Shown here: positions 3,871-43,800 of the stretch, piece after piece
Position numbering within the stretch: position 1 is the stretch's first letter
How the letters are laid out: each line of letters starts with the position of its first letter
The notes under the pieces: model-generated
Told to the model about the DNA's origin: nothing
Databases searched by the model: none
Seen by the model: the letters and a program-made list of their open reading frames with translations, nothing else
Assembly: GCF_025698545.1 (NCBI RefSeq)
Contig: NC_068569.1
Location: 22,692,001 to 22,756,000 of the forward strand
Length of the DNA: 64,000 nt
Reading direction: 5' to 3'
DNA from: Gossypium raimondii
Taxonomy: Eukaryota > Streptophyta > Magnoliopsida > Malvales > Malvaceae
Position numbers and translations under genes: made by a program

Positions 3871-4972
3871 CTTATTTGATCTTTTAGAGAAAGGTTAAGT
3901 GCTAAAAGTATCATTATGCAATTTATTTATTCCTAATTATTAACAATTTAGTTTAATCCATTTTAGTTTCTTTTGGTAAATGATTTTTTTTCATAAATGT
4001 TAAAAGAAATCAATTTAGATAATTGAACGCAAAAAGTTTAGATTTTTCTTTAATTCTATCTCACTTCTGTGGAGGTTTTGTCAACATGTATTGCGAGGAG
4101 AGACCCTATTGGAAGCAGAACAATATTGGTGGCTTTATTCCCTAAAACACCCGTTTCATATTCTTCTACCATATATTCTAAAAGTATTCTTCATACCTAA
4201 AATTCTCCAACTAGCCTGTTTAACAGAATATGAATTTACAGTGTATAGACACCTGGGAGACTAGCCTTCTCACTCTGCCTCTCATAATCTACAAAGCAAC
4301 CATTTCAGTTTTTACTTATTACACCATTTAAATTAATCCTATTTACTACTCTACTAACATAAATATTATTAAATTTTATATATTAAATAAATATGTAAAA
4401 TCATATAGGGTGAGTATTGGAATCAAAAAGTTTTGAGTTAATCGAGTTTACAAATCTTTTTTATCATTCTAATTGATTTGAAATTTTCTTCGATTCAATT
4501 AAGTGAAATAGAATTGAATCTGATCTTAAATTAAAAAATGACTGGAGCTTTTTATTTTTATGTAATTTTTCAAAAATGTTTTTTTAGGTTTTGAAATTAA
4601 TTTGGTGGTAAAGGAGAGAAAATAAAAGATTTTGGGGGTAAAGAGGGAAGAAATACAAAAATTGTGGGGATTTTGATTCTCAAGTAAAAAAGGAAGGGAA
4701 AGTAAAAAATTTCGAAGAGAAGTGGGGTAAAGTGTTGATCGGGAGGAGATTTTTTTTTTAGTAGTTTGATATTTGGTTTATTTGAATTATTTAAGTTATT
4801 TTAATTTGAAAATTTAATTTGATTTAATTTAAAATTCGAAAAAAATATTGGAATAATTAAAAAAATTCGATTTAAAGTTGCTTCTGAGCATGAGAGTGTC
4901 AACTTTCAAGCCTTAGAATTAACCAGCAGTTCACTTTCCACTTATTCTGTTTCTCTAAGCAAAGAGAAGGAA

Positions 4973-6873
4973 ATGAGAAGTTTCTACAGTTACCTTCTTC
5001 TCTATATTTCCATGATTCTTCTACTATTCTGTACCAGCACCAAGGGTTACAGTGATCTTGAAGTCCTGTTGAAGCTCAAGTCTTCCATGATTGGACCCAA
5101 AGCTTCAGGGTTAGACGACTGGGAATTCTCGTCGTCTCCATCAGCGCATTGCCATTTCTCTGGTGTCAAATGCGACGAGGATCACCGTGTTGTTGCTCTG
5201 AATGTGTCGTTTACTCCCCTCTACGGCACCATATCTCCCGAGATAGGGCTTCTGAACAAGCTCGTGAACCTTACCATTTCTAAGGTTGAACTTACGGGGA
5301 ATATTCCTACGGATATGAGGAATTTGACTTCTCTCAAGACATTCAACATCTCCAATAACTATTTCCGAGGGAGTTTCCCTGGTGAAATTCTTACAGGTAT
5401 GACCCAGCTTGAGATTCTCGATGCTTATAACAATAACTTCACCGGCCTTCTCCCCGTTGAACTCGCCAACCTGAAACATCTGAATCATCTGTCTTTCGGA
5501 GGCAACTATTTCACGGGAGAGGTCCCCGACAAGTACTCCGACATCCAGAGCTTGGAATTCTTGGGTCTAAATGCCAATGATTTAACTGGGAAAATCCCTG
5601 CCTTCTTGGGTCGTTTAAAAAACCTTAAAAGCTTGTTCCTCGGATATTCCAACGCCTTCCATGGAGGAATCCCACCTGAGTTTGGGTCCTTAACTCAACT
5701 CAAATCCCTCGACATGGCAAGCTGTAACCTAACCGGTGAGGTTCCCGAGAGTTTGGGTAAACCGAGAGTTTGGGTAATTTGAAACGCTTGCGTACATTGT
5801 TCCTTCAACAGAACTCCCTCACTGGTCGGATACCTTCCCAACTCGCTGGTTTAACTAGCTTGAAGGATCTTGATCTTTCCTTGAATGAACTAACGGGGGA
5901 GATACCAGAGAGTTTCTCTGCCTTGCAGAACATTTCTATGATCATTTTGTTCAAAAATAAGCTCCACGGTTCAATCCCGTCGTATGTAGGTGACTTACCC
6001 CAACTCGCAGTGCTTAAACTGTGGGAAAACAACTTCACGGGTGAATTGCCGGAGAATCTTGGCCGCAATGGGAAGCTCTGTAATCTTGACGTTTCTTCGA
6101 ATTACCTCACCGGATCGATTCCACTAGATTTGTGTAAGGGAGGGACGTTACAGGAGTTGATTCTGATGGATAATTTCTTCTTCGGTCCACTCTCTGAAAA
6201 ACTCGGAAACTGCAACTCTCTTACCAAGATTCGTATCAAGAAAAACAATCTCAATGGAACGATTCCGGCCGGAATTTTCAACTTGCCCTCGCTGAGTTTC
6301 GTCGAGCTAGACGATAATTTCTTCGCCGGTGAACTCCCACAGCGTATGTCAGGTGATTCGCTTGAAATGTTAAAAATCTCAAACAATTTGATCAGTGGTG
6401 AAATCCCTCCAGCGATCGGAAACTTGCGCAGTTTACAAGTTTTGGAGCTTGCAAGGAACAAACTTTCAGGTGAAATCCCTCCTTCGATCTCTCGCTGTAC
6501 TTCGCTCACTTCAATTGATTTCAGTCAGAACAGTCTCAGCGGTGAAATCCCAAAAGGAATTAACAAGTTGGAACATTTAAGCAATCTCAATGTCTCCAGG
6601 AACCGGTTAACAGGTGAAATCCCTGCTGAAATCGAGAACATGACGAGCCTCGCAACACTTGATGTTTCGGACAACAATTTGATTGGAAGGGTCCCCTGTG
6701 CAGGCCAGTTCTTATTCTTCGACGATAGCTCGTTTAGTGGAAACCCCAACCTCTGTACCCCGAACGATAGTCATTGTCCAGCTAGAGGTTCAAGCCATGG
6801 TCACGCACCATGTTTCGCTGCTTCCAAGCTCATAATCACAACTATCATGTTAATCATACTAGAGGGAAACTAG
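4973..6873 (+). pseudogene. CLAVATA1-like LRR receptor kinase pseudogene (frameshifted, kinase lost)
   Basis: CLAVATA1 is a plasma-membrane LRR receptor kinase that perceives CLE peptides and restricts stem-cell number in meristems. The frame opens with a signal peptide (hydrophobic [14 protein letters not shown]), an LRR N-terminal cap ending in [15 protein letters not shown], and then about 20 LRRs of the LxxLxxLxLxxNxLxGxIP type. Motifs typical of the CLV1 subclade are clear ([18 protein letters not shown]-like, [28 protein letters not shown]-like). A 17-bp tandem duplication at 5745-5778 breaks the frame after EVPESLG, and the downstream frame resumes with [11 protein letters not shown]. 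Compared with CLV1 as I know it, one repeat is missing between RNKLSGEIP and PSISRCTSL. The frame ends inside the would-be transmembrane segment ([11 protein letters not shown] then a stop), and no kinase sequence follows to 7.1 kb. A secreted truncated LRR protein is conceivable only from the part before the frameshift. Confidence 0.9.
5745..5778 (+). repeat. 17-bp tandem duplication causing the frameshift
   Basis: CCGAGAGTTTGGGTAA occurs twice back to back (5745-5760 and 5762-5777), one extra base completing each 17-bp unit. Removing one unit restores an uninterrupted LRR frame across the junction, so the duplication itself is the inactivating lesion. It looks like a filled double-strand break or replication slippage. 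Confidence 0.92.
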
Positions 6874-28960: not shown

Positions 28961-36178
<7,218 letters not shown>

Positions 36179-36498
36179 TTCCAATCGCTTGCAATTCCAA
36201 CCGCTCGCGGATCTCTAATAAAATCGAACACCAATGAGGAAACCCTAACCCCTAAATTCGAGAAAAATGCGGAAGAAGAAAACAATTTGGATAGCTTCGA
36301 TTTTTCTTTATAGCTTCTGCTAGTGTATGTTTCGCAAACAGTCGGGTTTAGGGCACAAAAATAATGTGAATGGACAGTTATACCCTTATTGATTTGGCAG
36401 TCTGCTAGTCAGAATAGTTACAGGTCTTTGTGCACACACGTATGGGTAAGGTAAGTTTGGAATTTTGCTAATGGTATCATTTATATCCATTTAAATTG
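36179..36498 (-). promoter_or_regulatory. Remaining proximal promoter and 5' UTR of the XRN3-like gene
   Basis: Only about 311 bp separate the XRN3 start codon from the target duplication of the MULE. On the plus strand 36238-36252 reads AAACCCTAACCCCTA, a telo-box-like sequence just upstream of the gene; telo boxes are usual in promoters of housekeeping and RNA-metabolism genes in plants. No TATA box is obvious. Confidence 0.55.
36490..36498. repeat. MULE target-site duplication, left copy (TTTAAATTG)
   Basis: TTTAAATTG at 36490-36498 directly abuts the left inverted repeat and is matched base for base by 43792-43800. Nine bases is the standard Mutator-superfamily target duplication. Confidence 0.97.
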
Positions 36499-36617
36499 GG
36501 ACAATTTACCAATAAAAGCCCTTTTTTTTAAAAAATTACTGAAATGGGCCCATTATTTAATTATTTACCGGAATGGTCCTTTTTTCCGCGAAATCGCGTC
36601 CACGTCAGCGCGAGTTG
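36499..36617 (+). repeat. MULE left terminal inverted repeat
   Basis: This pairs with the complement of 43674-43791 with only scattered differences and small indels in the A/T tract. It is rich in ACGT-containing and CGCGATTTC-type motifs near its inner end (ACGTCAGCGCGA). Confidence 0.93.
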
Positions 36618-36750
36618 TTGACATGGACGCGATTTCCTGGCGCGTACCCTGACATCGTGCTGACGTGGACGCGATTTCGCGATTTTTCCCACGTTAGGTT
36701 TTTTTGGCTTTTAGGATTTAGGGTTCAGGCTTTTAAGGGTTTTTAGGTCC

Positions 36751-37152
36751 TGGAAGAAATAATTTCGAGTTGACGTTTCTAATAAAATAGTATAAAATCG
36801 CTTCTAGCAGAATGCTATTTGAGAATAATTTGTGAAATCGCGCCCTCGTGGACGCGCTTTTGCTACAGTAGGTCACGGAAGAAATAATTATTTTTTTGAC
36901 ATTTCTGAGCAAATAGTATAAAATAGCTTCTAGGAGGATCCTATTTGAGAAGAATTTGTGCAATCGCGACCTCGTCAGCGTGCTTTTGCTATAGTAGGTC
37001 ATGTAAGAAATATTTTTTTTTTGACGTTTCTGTAGAAATATTTTTTTTTGACGTTTCTGAGCAAATAATATAAAATCGCTTCTAGCAGGATGCTATTTGA
37101 GAAGAATTTGTGAAATCGCACCCTCGTGGACGCGCTTTTGCTACAGTAGCAT
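36751..37152. repeat. Three ~130-150-bp tandem repeats upstream of the MULE transposase
   Basis: Units at about 36751-36875, 36876-37003 and 37004-37152 share GAAATAATTT/ATT, TTGACGTTTCTGAGCAAATA, a TATAAAATCGCTTCTAGCAG core, GCTATTTGAGAAGAATTTGT and end CGCGCTTTTGCTACAGTAGG-like. The third has an extra internal duplication of the TTTTTTTTGACGTTTCTG block. Each includes a TATAAAATCGCTTC core. Confidence 0.93.
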
Positions 37153-37166
37153 GTTTGGGCTGAGGC

Positions 37167-37173
37167 TATAAAT
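37167..37173 (+). promoter_or_regulatory. TATA box of the MULE transposase gene
   Basis: GGCTATAAATTAGG lies 80 bp upstream of the transposase start codon and just after the tandem-repeat block, a normal distance for a short leader. Confidence 0.6.
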
Positions 37174-37251
37174 TAGGTAGAAAATGTTCTCAGAATGCAT
37201 AAGTCACAGCAGAAACAATTTAGAGAGGTTAAGAAGGTTAGAGTTTCAAAT

Positions 37252-40128
37252 ATGAGTAAACGTATTAGTGCTGTTATTTACTACGATGGGGAGGTTTGCC
37301 ACACCGAGAATGGTGTTATTTTTTTTGTCGGAGAATACGGTGCGACTGGTTTTTAACCAGAACATAGATTTGACAGAACTTCGTAAAAGGATTAGGCGTA
37401 AAATTTTTGGAACGACGCCAATGAAAGTTCTGTCTATCACGTATCGATTTTGTTCGTCTGTTGATCCGGTGACATATGACTCGTTCGACATAAAAGGTGC
37501 TCGTAGCTTAGAGGTAATGGTGCAGGCTCATCTTGCTAGTGGAGCATCTTATATTGAGTTATATGTACAATTTACATCGCCAACTGATGTACCAGCGACC
37601 GGTGTTCGAGATGTATACACCACCCCTGGCCGACACTCAGTCAGCGGGTTACAAAATACGGAATAGCCCATGTTTGGTAGCAGTGTCGAATGCACATCCC
37701 CTGCAAGACACTCTGTCAGTGGATGGGACATGTACGTCGGTGGCTCGATGTTTGATGCTGGAAATACGTACTAGGGAGCGACATCAAGTTCTAGTGGGTG
37801 GCAATCTACGTCCAATTGGGGACGTTATCAAATGCCCAGAAGAAGGGATGATGTACTCCCTACGACGTCAACCGGTGAGGGGACTTCGTACACTGCAGAT
37901 GATTGTGGGTTAGAATATGACTCCAATGTGGATCCACCTCGAGAGCTCGGGCCGGATAGTGCAGAAGTTGGCTTATTTTCTGAACCGGAGTCTATTCCAA
38001 CAGAAGCTGAAGATGCTGAAAGGAGTTTAGATGAGGAAGAAAATCCACGATTCAGAGCATACTCACTTCTAGCCCACATGCATAATGTCGATCTGTCTGC
38101 AGATGATGCGTTAGAGTTTCCAGATCTACCACACTGGTTGCGTGATCGTACAAGTTCGGGGGTAGCTTTCAGTAAACTTGAAGTTGGTAATCAGTTTACC
38201 AACAAGGATAGTTTTATTGGTGCTTTGAAACAACATAGCATCAAAAACGGCGTTAACACCACGTCGTTAAATCAAAATCTGATAAGTTTGAGGCGAAGTG
38301 TGCGGTGCAAGACGGCACATGTTCATGGAAAATTTACGCCTCGTTAAGTAAAAGGACAGGGTTGTGGGAGATAAAAAAGTACAAAGGTCCACATACATGT
38401 GCTGCAGGTACAGTATTGACTGTATCTGAATAATACTTTTATTATGCAATGTTGCATTATTTAATGTACTCCCTTTGTAGGTGTTTCACAATATCACCCC
38501 AAAATGGATTCAGCTATGTTAGCTAGCTTGATACTGCCCACGATAAAAGCATATCCTAGGACTTCAGTGCCGGTGTTAATTGCCAATATCCGTAGCCAAA
38601 TGGGGTACACGTCCTCTTACCGCAAGGCTTGGATAGCTAAGCAAAAGGTGTTGGAGAAGATGCATAGTGGGTGGGACGCCTCATATAATAAAATATGGCA
38701 GTGGTGTCAAGTGCTAGAGAGATACGTCCCCGGTGCCATCACAGACCTTGAAACGGAACATGCGTACTACAACGGCCGATTGCTACATGGATGCCAAGTG
38801 TTCAAACGCCTGTTTTGGACCTTTAAGTAATGCCGAGGCGTGTTTCCATACTGCAAGTCGTTGGTATAAATTGACGGTACCTTCATGTTCGGTAGGTATA
38901 CTCATCAGCTATTGCTTGCAGTGGCACAGGATGGCGGTGAGAGAATTCTTCCAATTGCATTTGCAATAACACCGGGGGAGTCGTCTGATGACTGGGATTT
39001 CTTTCTCTCTAGGTTAAGGAGGCATGTGTGCCCCCAACCTGATATCTGTGTTATTTCAGATCGGCTCACCGGTATACTAGCTGCATTTGATTGAGAGGGA
39101 AGCTTATAGCAGCGCACACACCATAGATATTGCCTAAGACACGTTGCTTCGAACTACTACAGGCAATATCCATCTAAGAGCGAACGACGACAAGTGACCA
39201 ACATGAGTATTTAGTCTATATATGTGTTATTTTGTTTGTCAATTTGAATTAGTTTTATTGGTAGAAGTGGTATAAATTATTCGCTATGATCTTATATTGG
39301 CAGGGTATGAAATAAATAAAGATCGTTTTCACGAGATGTTGGCAATTTTACGATCTCAAAACGGAGAAGGGGCGGACTACCTTTGTAACATACGTTTCGA
39401 ACAGTGGGTACAAGCATACGACGGTGGCCTACGATATGGCCATATGACGTCGAACCTGGCAGAATGCATAAATTCTGTTCTTAAAGGAACGCGCCATCTA
39501 CCGATAACATCAGTTGTGCGAGAGACATATTTTCGTTTGGCAGCGCTATTTCCAAAGCGAGCAGCAAGTTATGCAGGCCAGATTCAGGGAGGCCATGTAT
39601 GGTGCAGTAAGGTAGTTCAAGAAATTAACAAGGCCAAGGTAAGGGAAAACCCTATGCACACAGTGTGTCATGATCGAGACAATTTATGGTTTCGCGTGAC
39701 AGAGTTTGACAGACCGCACCAAGGTGTTGTTGGCGGGCAATATCATGTACACTTGGGAAATAGGACTTGTGATTGTGGGATGTTTGATGCACTTCGTTAT
39801 CCATAAACTCATGTTATTGCGGCTTGTCAGAAACTCTGTCTGGATCCGATGAGTTATGTGGACGAACTGTACAAATTAGAAAACATGTACAACGTATGGA
39901 GACACGTTTTCCCACCGGTCCCAGATGAACGTAAGTGGCCGCCCGTATCTCTTGCTCTTTTAAGTCATTACGGATAGAGAATTACGTCGCAAACTAAAGG
40001 GTCGACCTTGCTCGACTAGAATACGTAACAATATGGATATCCGAGAAATAGCTAGTCAAACGAAGTTGTGCGGATGGTGTAGGAATCCAGGCCATACAAG
40101 TCGATCATGCCCCAATCACAATAGTTGA
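37252..40128 (+). pseudogene. MULE (MuDR-type) transposase, frameshifted
   Basis: The start ATG at 37252 gives MSKRISAVIYYDGEVCHTEN, an N-terminal domain that precedes the catalytic part in this MULE group. The frame breaks near 37310 and resumes as SENTVRLVFNQNIDLTELRK. A later frame (37832-38347) holds the acidic linker and the start of a MuDR N-terminal domain (FTNKDSFIGALKQHS). An intron fits at 38408-38480. The catalytic core keeps DGTFMFGRYTH near 38875, CVISDR near 39055 and NLAECINSVLKG near 39460, so the DDE acids are present although in different frames. The SWIM zinc finger reads CDCGMFDALRYP then a stop where Cys/Ala is expected, followed by THVIAAC. A C-terminal zinc knuckle (CGWCRNPGHTSRSC) ends at the TGA at 40126-40128. 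A second intron fits at 39205-39302. At least three frameshifts/stops make it non-functional. Confidence 0.93.
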
Positions 40129-40189
40129 ATGTAATTGTAAAAAAATTAAGTTTGTGAAATTATTAATTGATAAATTGTATTAAGTCAAA

Positions 40190-40410
40190 AAATTGTATTA
40201 ATGGTTAGTAAAATTATCAAATTATATAAAATTATTAATTGTTAGTACCAGTCAAAACATTTTTTCAAATCTAACATTATGTGAATGTAAAATTATTAAG
40301 TCAAAAATTGTATTAATGGTTAGTAAAATTATCAAATTATGTAAAATTATTATTTGTTAGTATCACCAAAACATTTTTCCAAATCTAACATTACGTGAAT
40401 GTAACATTGT
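40190..40410. repeat. 115-bp direct repeat inside the MULE
   Basis: TTAAGTCAAAAA(A)TTGTATTAATGG through ATCTAACATTA(T/C)GTGAATGTAA is present twice with a 115-bp period (compare ATGGTTAGTAAAATTATCAA at 40201 and 40316). It lies just downstream of the transposase stop. Confidence 0.92.
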
Positions 40411-40414
40411 TAAC

Positions 40415-40985
40415 TTAGTTTAGGTTTTTAATTAAATTAGGTTAAGGTTAGGGTTTTTAAGTTAAGGGTTTAGGGTTTTAATTAAACTAGGTTAGGGTTA
40501 GGGTTTTTAATTAAATTAGGTTAGGGTTTTAATTAAATTAGGTTAAGGTTAAGGTTAGGGTTTTTAAGTTAAGGGTTTAGGTTTTTAATTAAATTAGGTT
40601 AGGGTTAGGGTTTTAATTAAATTAGGTTAGAGTTTTTAATTAAATTAGGTTAGGTTTTTAATTAAATTAGGTTAGGGTTTTTAATTAAATTAGGTTAGAG
40701 TTAGGGTTTTAATTAATTTAGGTTAGGGGTTAGGGTTAGGGATTTTAATTAAATTAGGTTAGGGTTAGGGTTTTAAATTAATTTAGGTTAGGGTTAGGGT
40801 TTTTAATTAATTTAGGTTAGGGATAGGGTTTTTAATTAAATTAGGTTAGGGTTAGGGTTTTAATTAATTTAGGTTAGGGCTTAGGGTTTTAATTAAATTA
40901 GGTTAGGTTTTTAATTAAATTAGGTTAGGTTAGGTTTTAATTAATTTAGGTTAGGGTTTAGGGTTAAATTAGGTTAGGGTTTTTA
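40415..40985 (+). repeat. Telomere-like TTAGGG-rich minisatellite
   Basis: A degenerate tandem array whose unit is approximately (TTAGGG)1-3 followed by TTTTTAATTAAATTAGG, about 20-35 bp per unit, covers some 570 bp. Variants insert GGGTTTAGGG (the plant telomere heptamer TTTAGGG) or lose one TTAGGG. It sits between the 3' ends of the transposase and PMD genes. It is neither a real telomere nor a simple microsatellite, because an AATTAAATTA spacer separates the G-rich parts. Confidence 0.95.
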
Positions 40986-41193
40986 TTACATAAAATAAAC
41001 TTCTATTTTATTACATCAAATAATATCAAAATATCTCGAAATTTTTTATTTTATTACATCAAATAAATTTCTATTTTATTACATCAAATAAACTTCTATT
41101 TTATTATATCAAATAATATCAAAATAACTCAAAAAATTTATATTTTTTACATAAAATAATATCAAAATATTCAAAATATTTGTACAAATAAAT

Positions 41194-43357
41194 TTAAATA
41201 CGGCAATCAATGTCTATGCCCGGGGGATTCAGTGCCACATGGCGGCCGTCGACGGTTACGTGCTGGATTCCTGCTTCTCTAACTTTCGGCGGCAGTTGTT
41301 GTTCCTCCGGTGGGGATTCTGGGTCTTCCGGTTCGGCATCTAGTTATCGGACTTGGGACGATGATCCACCTTCAAAGAATAGTGTATATGGAGTTGTTTG
41401 CATCAGGAACGGCGACGGTGTTTGAAACCCATACGTTGGTGGGGATTGGTAAAAATGAGAGCTCCCCAACGGCCCCCCTTGCGATCCCTCGTGCGCCGTT
41501 GGCCTACACATCGGTGGTCTGCTCGGCATAACAGGAAATGGAGCTAAACCGGGCATTTGGCTCCAACCTGCTTTCTCTAGCTTTCTCTAGATTCAGTGCC
41601 ACATGGCGGCCGTCGACGGTTACGCGCTGGATTCCTGCTTTCTCTAGCTTCCGGCGGCGGTTGTTGTTCCTCCGGTGGAGATTCTGGTTCTTCCAGTTCG
41701 GCATTTGGTTGTCAGACTTGGAACGATGATCCATCTTCAAAGAATAGTGTATGTGGAGTTGTTTGCATCAGGAACGGCAACGGTGGTTGAAACCCATACG
41801 TTTGGTGGGGATTGGTAAAAAGGAGAGCTCTCCGACGGCCCCCTTGAGATCCCTCGTATGCCATTGGTATATACATCGGCGGTCCGCTCGGCATAACAGG
41901 AAATGGAGCTGAATCGGACATTTGGCTCTAACCTGCCATAGGACTTGGAAAAGGATACATATAAGGGTTAGGGTACATATAAGGGCTAGGAAATGCACCT
42001 GGCATCATCTAAAAAGGCGGTTGCGTGGGTATCATCGGTTGAACTGCTGCGTCAGTGCTCTCGTTGGGCCAGGCGATTGCATGGCCGCTGATGATGAGCC
42101 GAGTGAATGTCTGGGCCTCGTTGAGGGGCTACCTTCGTCTTGTCGTCTTGGATTTAGAGGCCCTCGCCTTTCCCTTTCGACACGTATTTGTCGCTGCCTC
42201 TCCTCTGGCGTCAGTAAATACGGCTTGCCATGGATCCTAAACCATGGCATGTATTCTGGAACACACGATAACTCCGGAACGATGATTGGTTCCCGAGTAG
42301 GTAGATATTCATACCGATCTTTCCACATTTCCATATACTCAGACCAGTATCTCGTCCAATCCGTATTCAATTACCGAAGGTCAACTTTGTGTTGATCGTC
42401 AAACACATCAGGATCCACCAGAATCGGTTGTCTACATCCAAACTGCTGTAGCACTCTGTCTGTCTGGTGCAGCTCCACGGTTGCGTAGTTGACCAACACA
42501 ACTTTCACGTGTCAAGCTTGTGGATTTTGTAAAAACTCTTCGGGGATTACTGCCCGAATTGTCGGATCCTCGTATGGTGTCCATTGAAACTATATGAACA
42601 TGATAGAAATATTAGTTATATACATAATACTAAATACTAAATACTAAATATCAATCGAATAAAGAATGTATGAAATATCTATTTGCACTAATATTAGTTT
42701 TAGCAGCCATCTTAGATGTACGCGGCTCCGTGACATGTCGGGCATCAGATAACCTCCAATTAATTGAAGAATGTATGTCCGAGCATATCAGATTCTTTCA
42801 ATTTCGGTTGAATCTTCATCCGGATCAGGGAATGTGTTACGTAACTAGCCCATCTCGACCTTACCTCCCTCCATTTTCTCCGGAATAGCGCACTAAAGCT
42901 CGTAGCACACCGCCTCCCAATTGCTAGATTGGGCAGTCCCGGTGACTGAGTGCCTATCCACCGGCAATCCCAATGCAGACTAACATCTTCTAGAGTGATA
43001 GTACACTCTCCACATGGAAGATGGAATGTGTGCGTCTCGGGTCTCCACCTCTCAATCAACGCACTGATCAGTTTCCGGTCCAACTTGCATCCCCGGCCTA
43101 CCGTCGCCACGTGCCAAAAACCCGCTTCCCGCAGGTAGTTCTCTACCAATGGTAATGGAGAAGCATGCATATTCCGGATATTGCATTCCAATACCCGATC
43201 TACAGACTTTTATAACAAATAATAAATTAATAATTATCTAAAAATGCATAAATAAAAAATTCTTAAATAATATTTAAAAATTAAATTTAACACTTACCAT
43301 TTTCATTTGTTTCATCGATATGTGATGCCTATCAAGACGAGTCAATGATCCGGCCAT
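41194..43357 (-). pseudogene. Plant mobile domain (PMD) gene carried by the MULE, broken
   Basis: PMD proteins (relatives MAIN/MAIL1 and long-form PP7 in plants) occur both as host genes and inside transposons. Exon 1 (43298-43357) gives MAGSLTRLDRHHISMKQMKM; exon 2 starts at 43206 with [12 protein letters not shown] and continues with [20 protein letters not shown] and [17 protein letters not shown], the PMD core. A 1-bp deletion after VSL shifts the frame (the old frame continues [13 protein letters not shown]). Further down the expected ERIRYAR has TGA for Arg. The C-terminal part is recognisable (YMEMWKDRYEYLPTREPIIV, MPWFRIHGKPYL, RQIRVERERRGPLNPR) and is followed by a Pro/Met/Tyr-rich tail (SPYMYPNPYMYPFPSPMAG) and a duplicated segment, ending near 41194. 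It is oriented tail-to-tail with the transposase. Confidence 0.9.
41227..41937 (-). repeat. 364-bp tandem duplication in the PMD gene tail
   Basis: Copy A at 41227-41590 and copy B at 41591 to about 41937 align along their whole length (both start ATTCAGTGCCACATGGCGGC on the plus strand). They code for the Pro/Ser-rich tail (APFPVMPSGPPMYIP, then TYGFQ-PLPFLMQTTPHTLF). The copies differ at many positions, so the duplication is not very recent. Confidence 0.93.
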
Positions 43358-43673
43358 TGATGAAATCGTACAAATTTTTACGATTTATAAAAATATAAAA
43401 TTATTTTAAAATTATTTTAAAAAAGGAAATTGAGAGGAAATTGAAATTAAATATGGATTTGAGATAATTTTGGAAGGAAATTGAGAGAATTTTGGAAGGA
43501 AATTGAGAGGAAATATGAGAGATGATTTGTTTGTGAAAAAATAAAAAGGGGTGGGGGTATTTATAGTTTTTTTTTGACCGTTGGGGTGGGGCAATGGTCA
43601 AATTTTTGACCGTTGGGTACTGTTCACGTGCGGGTCGAAATCGCGTAGTGGATGCGATTTCCAAGCGCGTACC

Positions 43674-43791
43674 CTAAAATCGCGCTGACGTGGACGTGAT
43701 TTCGTGGAAAAAGGACCATTCCGGTAAATAATTAAATAATGGGCCATTTCGGTAATTTTTGAAAAAAAGGGCTTTTATTGGTAAATTGTCC
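43674..43791 (-). repeat. MULE right terminal inverted repeat
   Basis: Its complement begins GGACAATTTACCAATAAAAG and continues as in the left repeat. The outer end abuts the second TTTAAATTG copy at 43792-43800. Confidence 0.93.
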
Positions 43792-43800
43792 TTTAAATTG
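43792..43800. repeat. MULE target-site duplication, right copy (TTTAAATTG)
   Basis: Identical to 36490-36498. The two copies, each immediately outside an inverted repeat, fix the insertion boundaries. Confidence 0.97.

Follow-up and report, generated by a model that had tools for sequence, protein, structure and literature searches.

Why would a transposon carry a gene for a plant mobile domain (PMD) protein of its own? The PMD proteins MAIN and MAIL1 silence transposons in Arabidopsis, according to what PMC5418596 and PMC7156037 report of them, yet we find a transposon family that keeps its own PMD under selection in each full-length copy that we examined. One member of this family is a 7.3-kb MULE in Gossypium raimondii. 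It lies at 36490..43800, including its target duplications, in the 64,000-nt stretch of NC_068569.1 that we analyzed (the window). Its features, by position in the window, are:

36490..36498 (no strand): left target-site duplication, TTTAAATTG, perfect 9 bp
36499..36616 (+ strand): left terminal inverted repeat (TIR), transposase side, 118 bp by end-to-end alignment; the family TIR
36744..37173 (+ strand): subterminal array of tandem repeats (about 126 bp) that contain a GC-rich motif
37256..37666 (+ strand): N-terminal piece of the transposase, open, with no Pfam match; by eye, its counterpart is L042 801-1454
37943..38461 (+ strand): transposase region of the DBD_Tnp_Mut type; the aligned piece contains 3 stops
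38573..39211 (+ strand): catalytic (MULE) region of the transposase; the aligned piece contains 4 stops
39678..40125 (+ strand): transposase region with the SWIM finger and the C-terminal CCHC knuckle; one frame change, and two aligned pieces with 1 stop apiece
40410..40985 (no strand): minisatellite of telomere-like sequence, GGTTAGGG along with TTTAATTAAATTA, lying between the ends of both genes
41226..41936 (- strand): tandem duplication of 365 bp within the proline-rich tail of the PMD, whose reading frame is seen in L040
42056..42589 (- strand): PMD exon 3, corresponding to codons 1-179 of the L039 piece; the aligned piece contains 2 stops
42692..43206 (- strand): remnant of PMD exon 2, codons 1-173 of 239, with a frameshift near codon 79 and 3 stops; the end of the exon is deleted
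43298..43357 (- strand): PMD exon 1, about 20 codons, with a GT donor
43677..43791 (- strand): right TIR, PMD side, 115 bp by end-to-end alignment
43792..43800 (no strand): right target-site duplication, TTTAAATTG, perfect 9 bp

A preliminary description of this DNA had proposed exact boundaries, with TIRs of about 118 bp inside a perfect 9-bp duplication of TTTAAATTG. Our alignment agrees: the two TIRs (118 and 115 bp) match at 93% over 118 bp. Long TIRs and a target duplication within the 8-11 bp range place the focal element among the MULEs, as does the MULE transposase domain, which scores above the cut-off in the sister copies L039 and L040. GC-rich motifs are enriched at the element's ends. 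All five of the full-length elements that we examined, counting the focal one, have perfect 9-bp duplications, the same TIRs, and the same layout, so the focal architecture is not due to chance. In a short derivative (L004), the duplication is imperfect.

The same description had claimed a MuDR-type transposase with a SWIM finger and a CCHC knuckle, and pieces of all of these types are indeed present on the + strand. The focal MULE, SWIM, and CCHC pieces fall below the Pfam cut-offs; in the sister copy L039, DBD_Tnp_Mut (39.4 bits), MULE (47.3 bits), and SWIM (33.3 bits) are all above them. The PMD of the focal element, on the - strand, is above the cut-off at 61.3 bits, and the two genes are convergent (tail to tail), as had been described. 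The claim that the PMD gene has two parts does not hold up: in sister copies it has three exons (exon 1 of about 20 codons, exon 2 of 239 codons, and exon 3 with a proline-rich tail), and the focal copy is broken, with a deletion that takes out the final third of exon 2 together with most of intron 2. The focal transposase is broken too, with stops in 4 of 4 aligned pieces. Given the stops in both genes and the frameshift and deletion in the PMD gene, the focal copy encodes no complete protein. It is a decayed member of an abundant family of TIR-type MULEs.

Is the PMD a regular part of this family? It is present in all eight of the full-length (6-8 kb) elements in which both TIRs were recognized, and six of these eight, which are those where both genes could be placed, have the tail-to-tail layout. 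Also, at 42 of 42 distinct places, which were chosen by searching for the PMD, the family TIR lies just upstream of the PMD, with 569-755 bases between it and the point where the exon 2 match begins. Working from the transposase instead, 35 among the 150 matches listed have a PMD within 8 kb (33 tail to tail and 2 head to head), as compared to a mean of 0.47 in a shift control. The other 115 of the 150 transposase matches listed have no PMD within 8 kb among the 150 PMD matches listed. We sampled three such places: at one, the 3.5 kb that we fetched contained no PMD, and at the second (L073) there was only a 44% match to the PMD. There are also short non-autonomous TIR pairs (267, 288, and 915 bp). 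These are too small to hold a PMD. In a divergent lineage (L025), the PMD again lies opposite the transposase. These results support the expectation that the full-length family members, as far as we have seen them, carry the PMD as a fixed component. Members without the PMD, together with an insertion signature around it, had been named as grounds for rejecting this, and no full-length element showed them.

The suggestion that PMD codons would be under purifying selection was also supported. For exon 2, w is 0.32 on the inner branches and 0.54 on the terminal branches, as compared to a neutral expectation of 0.72 derived from the intron spectrum; the loci were picked for their similarity to a protein or a profile, a choice that lowers dN. 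The terminal-branch value is only mildly below neutral. These estimates support the conclusion that the PMD gene was kept by purifying selection.

We also asked how the PMD relates to the PMD proteins of the host. Over codons 34-223 of exon 2, it is 38% identical to a host MAIL-like gene (L013), and in both genes exon 3 starts at the identical place (profile 239). This shared exon start bears out the description of the PMD as host-like. It differs from the MAIN/MAIL proteins of the host in being borne by an element, inside TIRs, and in many copies. Whether the MULE PMDs form a single clade as against host L013 is not decided by the AU test (p 0.34). The tree used for it left out L073, which had a long branch in an earlier tree, probably because its translation runs across a frameshift.

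A possible clue to function is DUF1985, which is found in VANC anti-silencing proteins (PMC5735166, Fig. 5 legend). Among 26 PMD proteins, many of which are near-copies, 22 match the Pfam model of DUF1985 at E up to 1, and none of three reversed control sequences do. The best match (E 9.5e-05) scores 22.8 bits against a curated cut-off of 35.1, so every match is below the cut-off. In a search of this genome for DUF1985, nothing reached an E of 0.001 or better, and 14 control genomes likewise gave nothing, so that this genome provided no DUF1985 protein for comparison. The match in the PMD proteins looks new, and it is weak but consistent; by this sequence similarity, the PMD may be the counterpart of VANC in TIR-MULEs. 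Comparisons of structure gave nothing further: our model of a host PMD (L010) was too poor for fold comparison (pLDDT 40.4), a model of the MULE PMD exon 2 (pLDDT 64.7, pTM 0.67) had no PDB fold match with an E of 0.001 or below, and no PMD turned up among solved structures when these were searched by sequence (best E 0.79). If the link holds, then the PMD gains a mechanistic relative whose action is known. More speculatively, and with the odds well against it, PMD, DUF1985 (VANC), and perhaps DUF7745 might form one superfamily, in which the antisense PMD of TIR-MULEs would correspond to VANC and would be an element-borne anti-silencing factor, directed to its targets by sequence through the GC-rich motifs that are repeated at the ends of the element. 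If so, then the silencers of the host (MAIN/MAIL) and the anti-silencing proteins of transposons would belong to a single family that serves both sides in an arms race.

What, then, does the PMD do for the element? The TIRs, the duplications, the layout, their recurrence, and the purifying selection are what our sequence analysis shows. As to function, we favor the following explanation, with a probability of roughly 55%: the working form of the family has two convergent genes near opposite TIRs, a MuDR-type transposase and, in the mudrB slot, a three-exon PMD that is selectively kept as the second gene and acts as an accessory factor, most likely against host silencing. A promoter at the right TIR would drive the PMD, which would work in trans on the DNA of the element, most likely keeping the family expressed in the face of host silencing. 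It might do so as VANC does, if it is a distant relative via DUF1985, or by competing with the MAIN/MAIL proteins of the host. An anti-silencing use of a transposon PMD has already been proposed in PMC5418596. Since the PMD is kept and selected in a family with many copies, that speculation becomes directly testable.

It is also possible, although we consider it rather unlikely, that the PMD is an accessory protein for transposition (for integration or the choice of targets) and is a functional counterpart of maize MURB with no role in silencing. The slot and the convergent layout are those of mudrB, which is described as necessary for Mu integration (PMC8224964), and purifying selection would be expected on this account as well. 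But the host PMD proteins are reported to have roles in silencing and in the expression of genes (PMC5418596, PMC7156037), and the weak DUF1985 link also points to VANC instead. It seems improbable that the PMD represses its own family and so controls copy number, much as MAIN and MAIL1 silence transposable elements in those two reports. The family is large and most of the copies among those listed are broken, as such repression might predict, but the selection that we measured could fit either sign of effect.

Equally improbable, in our opinion, is that the PMD is a passenger, a host gene that the founder picked up and that has since been replicated with the element while serving no purpose. 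MULEs can capture host sequences (as noted in PMC5418596), and by our by-eye count, 109 among the 150 exon 2 matches listed contain a stop. A useless passenger would not be expected to show an inner-branch w so far below the neutral value, nor to lie opposite the transposase in the divergent lineage as well. Finally, an AT-rich inverted pair (26 nt, 81%, 40158-40183 / 43210-43235) brackets most of the PMD gene, as if a PMD element had inserted into the MULE just once. However, the right arm of this pair falls within PMD intron 1, and by eye there is no duplication around the pair. We consider a one-off nested insertion to be refuted, with next to no chance of being correct, because the position of the PMD is the same in 8 of 8 full-length elements, and it is beside the TIR at all 42 places from the PMD search; its pairing with the transposase is also above the shift control. 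An accessory factor that opposes silencing is still the explanation that we prefer.

Among known systems, maize MuDR has a similar plan, with convergent mudrA and mudrB genes that each start in or near a TIR, which has promoters (PMC3440606, PMC8224964). The likeness is in layout; the second gene here is a PMD. In the fusions of PMD-C to MULE transposases that Ikeda et al. 2017 (PMC5418596) describe from grasses and from Amborella, a PMD also lies inside a MULE and an anti-silencing role was suggested, but the PMD of our family is a separate, convergent gene on the opposite strand instead of a fusion. The Arabidopsis VANDAL elements such as Hiun are MULEs with an extra gene, VANC, and with non-coding tandem repeats, and the DUF1985 of VANC is weakly matched by our PMD (PMC5735166). 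VANDALs lack TIRs or have short degenerate ones, in contrast to focal TIRs of 118 and 115 bp at about 93%, although some relatives in the VANDAL clade do have TIRs (PMC6446971). A VANC-type protein is also expected to hypomethylate its own family. A further close match is to the PMD-carrying plant MULEs of groups 47-50 (Dupeyron et al. 2019, PMC6446971). As described in their Table 1, these have SWIM or CCHC transposases, 9-bp duplications where given, TIRs of up to hundreds of bp, and a PMD in most members that is sometimes, often, or mostly antisense, as it is here. Because antisense PMDs in plant MULEs were already catalogued in that table, the architecture is not new; what we add is a copy-level test of fixation, the exon structure, an estimate of selection, and an account of the decay of the focal copy.

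The 7.3-kb MULE at 36490..43800 belongs to a family (family A) in which two genes converge between shared terminal inverted repeats (TIRs), and in which this anatomy has been maintained. The preliminary description gave the element exact ends, and we agree, as identical target-site duplications flank TIRs that align over their whole length:

36490-36498 and 43792-43800: target-site duplication TTTAAATTG, both copies identical
36499-36616 and 43677-43791: TIRs, aligned with each other end to end

Domain reading also bears out the transposase and oppositely oriented plant mobile domain (PMD) gene: the transposase is MuDR-type and on the + strand, and the PMD gene is on the - strand. This copy is dead. 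Its transposase has 3 stops in the DBD piece and 4 in the catalytic piece, and the SWIM/CCHC region is in two overlapping pieces, in different frames, with 1 stop in each. The PMD gene is a deletion remnant, because exon 2 changes frame around codon 79 and breaks off after 173 of its 239 codons, and because the spacing from exon 2 to exon 3 is shortened to about 100 bases, versus about 480 in the sister element L039. So the PMD gene is not "two-part" as was claimed: the gap between the parts was shortened by deletion, and in two sisters (L039 and L040) a short first exon opens the gene, with GT-AG intron ends. Next to the element, at 35912-36214 (- strand), is the N-terminus of an XRN 5'-3' exonuclease (PF03159, 67 bits). 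About 0.3 kb separates its likely ATG, near 36178, from the left end of the element, which places the MULE just upstream of a gene. Elsewhere in the window, at 4823-6873 (+ strand), are leucine-rich-repeat receptor-like reading frames that are divided by a frame change.

It had been proposed that the genome be searched with the paired TIRs, and doing so (750.8 Mb in 281 contigs, with C1-C13 of 48-63 Mb each) confirmed that PMD recurs. Two TIR searches, in which the best 40 of 1927 and the best 40 of 1759 first-look candidates were scored, yielded 10 pairs of TIRs that face each other across less than 20 kb. Three are short (267, 288, and 915 bp) and seven span 6.2-7.6 kb (the focal copy, L039, L040, L041, C8:52146939, C6:9344243, and C4:33891203). 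The second TIR of L042 was recognised in its fetched sequence, which makes 8 full-length elements. Among these (matches listed plus L042), PMD adjoins one TIR in 8 of 8, and the genes are tail to tail in all 6 with both genes placed (all but C8:52146939 and C6:9344243). The four sisters that we picked by their TIRs and fetched whole (L039-L042) each have a family TIR at both ends, with the transposase and PMD on opposite strands. Their 9-bp duplications are perfect, as in the focal copy, which makes 5 of 5 elements. L004 is a short derivative with an imperfect target duplication; its positions 1501-2527 hold about 1 kb between two family TIRs, with space for neither gene, and it is likely non-autonomous.

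From 5127 first-look candidates for PMD exon 2, the best 150 were listed, at 81-100% identity; 41 of them, by hand count, have a stop-free match. After dropping 7 duplicate loci, there were 47 distinct loci with exon 2 identity of at least 75%: the focal copy, 4 chosen by TIR, and 42 chosen by PMD searches (partly also present in the TIR lists). All 47 have a family TIR upstream of PMD, and in the 42 PMD-chosen loci the outer TIR end is 569-755 bases from the start of the matched exon 2. We did not find the family TIR in the examined flanks of the non-family PMD loci L013, L018, L025, L034, L035, L037, and L038; at another, L033, a family TIR lies about 1.4 kb away. Family TIR sequences also occur upstream of an intronless host PMD gene (L009, 72-886). 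A listed PMD lies no more than 8 kb from 35 of the listed transposase matches (the best 150 of 3440 first-look candidates), with 33 of these pairs tail to tail and 2 head to head; a shifted-coordinate control gave a mean of 0.47. The other 115 of 150 lack a listed PMD within 8 kb, the PMD list being a best 150 too. Three such places were fetched in part: L074 has an opposite PMD (74% in exon 2), L073 has an opposite PMD (44% match) that is probably frameshifted, and L075 has none in the 3.5 kb examined and matched 0 of the 4 whole sister elements.

The preliminary description also proposed testing PMD for a dN/dS (w) below 1, and w is below 1. For exon 2 we used the 46 family rows of 200 codons or more (which excludes the focal copy, at 173); their median pairwise w is 0.377. 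Sixteen of these rows have at least 236 codons without an in-frame stop. On a tree, w is 0.323 for inner branches and 0.541 for terminal branches; neutrality on this scale would correspond to 0.72, as judged from the mutation spectrum of intron 2 (41 rows, including the outgroup L018). The w values come from loci picked by protein similarity, profile similarity, or TIRs, and the first two of these criteria depress dN. Purifying selection therefore preserved PMD along those lineages that transposed, with selection relaxed in the end copies.

The MULE gene, as read in L039, and a host gene, L013, share the start of exon 3: profile position 239, directly after AG. By its sequence style, L013 is presumably MAIL-like. 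In trees, family A groups with L018, and a second PMD lineage, B, comprises L025, L033-L035, L037, and L038. L013 falls near lineage B with low support (63 in one tree; 77/70 in another), and an AU test did not reject a single clade of MULE PMDs (p = 0.34). Because L025 also has an opposite, divergent SWIM/CCHC transposase piece (47% identity to family A's), the genome holds at least two PMD-MULE lineages. Ikeda et al. inferred that PMD-C had been captured twice, in the form of fusions (PMC5418596). The architecture itself was already known, since Dupeyron et al. 2019 (PMC6446971) tabulate PMD in MULE groups 42 and 45-50, for group 50 "in antisense for most of them"; the accessible part of that paper gives no function for PMD. 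In tea, 175 PHAS loci were reported at PMD genes (PMC10673657).

Between the ends of the two convergent genes, at 40410-40985, is a telomere-like GGTTAGGG minisatellite (92 counted on both strands of five elements, 1.0 expected). A GC-rich motif around CGTCCACG/ACGTCAGC is repeated in both orientations at both element ends (36587-36681 and 43649-43712), and CGTCCACG was counted 26 times in the five elements (0.4 expected).

Many of the PMD proteins weakly match DUF1985, a domain of the anti-silencing VANC proteins of VANDAL elements (PMC5735166). Pfam DUF1985 matches at E up to 1 in 22 of 26 PMD proteins (best 9.5e-05), many of which are near-copies, so these matches are not independent. At E up to 0.1 it matches 6 of 8 proteins searched, always on profile positions 82-140 of 141, with no such match in L018 or the host protein L009. 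Every match scores under the curated cut-off, and all three reversed sequences that served as controls gave no match. DUF7745 matches weakly in 5 of 26 PMD proteins in our alignment (best E 7.9e-05). A whole-genome search for DUF1985 gave 0 matches at E up to 0.001, which does not prove absence, as control genomes were equally silent; PMD matches in the same genome, unlike DUF1985, are very many. Our literature search, of limited reach, found no paper naming both "DUF1985" and "plant mobile domain". The VANDAL row of Dupeyron et al. reads "PMD and/or DUF in half the members" (PMC6446971), which would fit exchange of PMD and DUF in the same slot, with the type of DUF left unnamed.

We suspect that PMD works in trans on the element's DNA, most likely to counter silencing. 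Among known two-gene MULEs, MuDR also has convergent genes (PMC3440606), which are under TIR promoters, and its mudrB is needed for integration (PMC8224964). According to PMC5735166, VANC strips methylation from its own family, its targets are often tandem repeats, and VANC proteins carry tandem peptide motifs in regions that vary; the focal PMD gene has a 365-bp tandem duplication (41226-41936) in its proline-rich tail.
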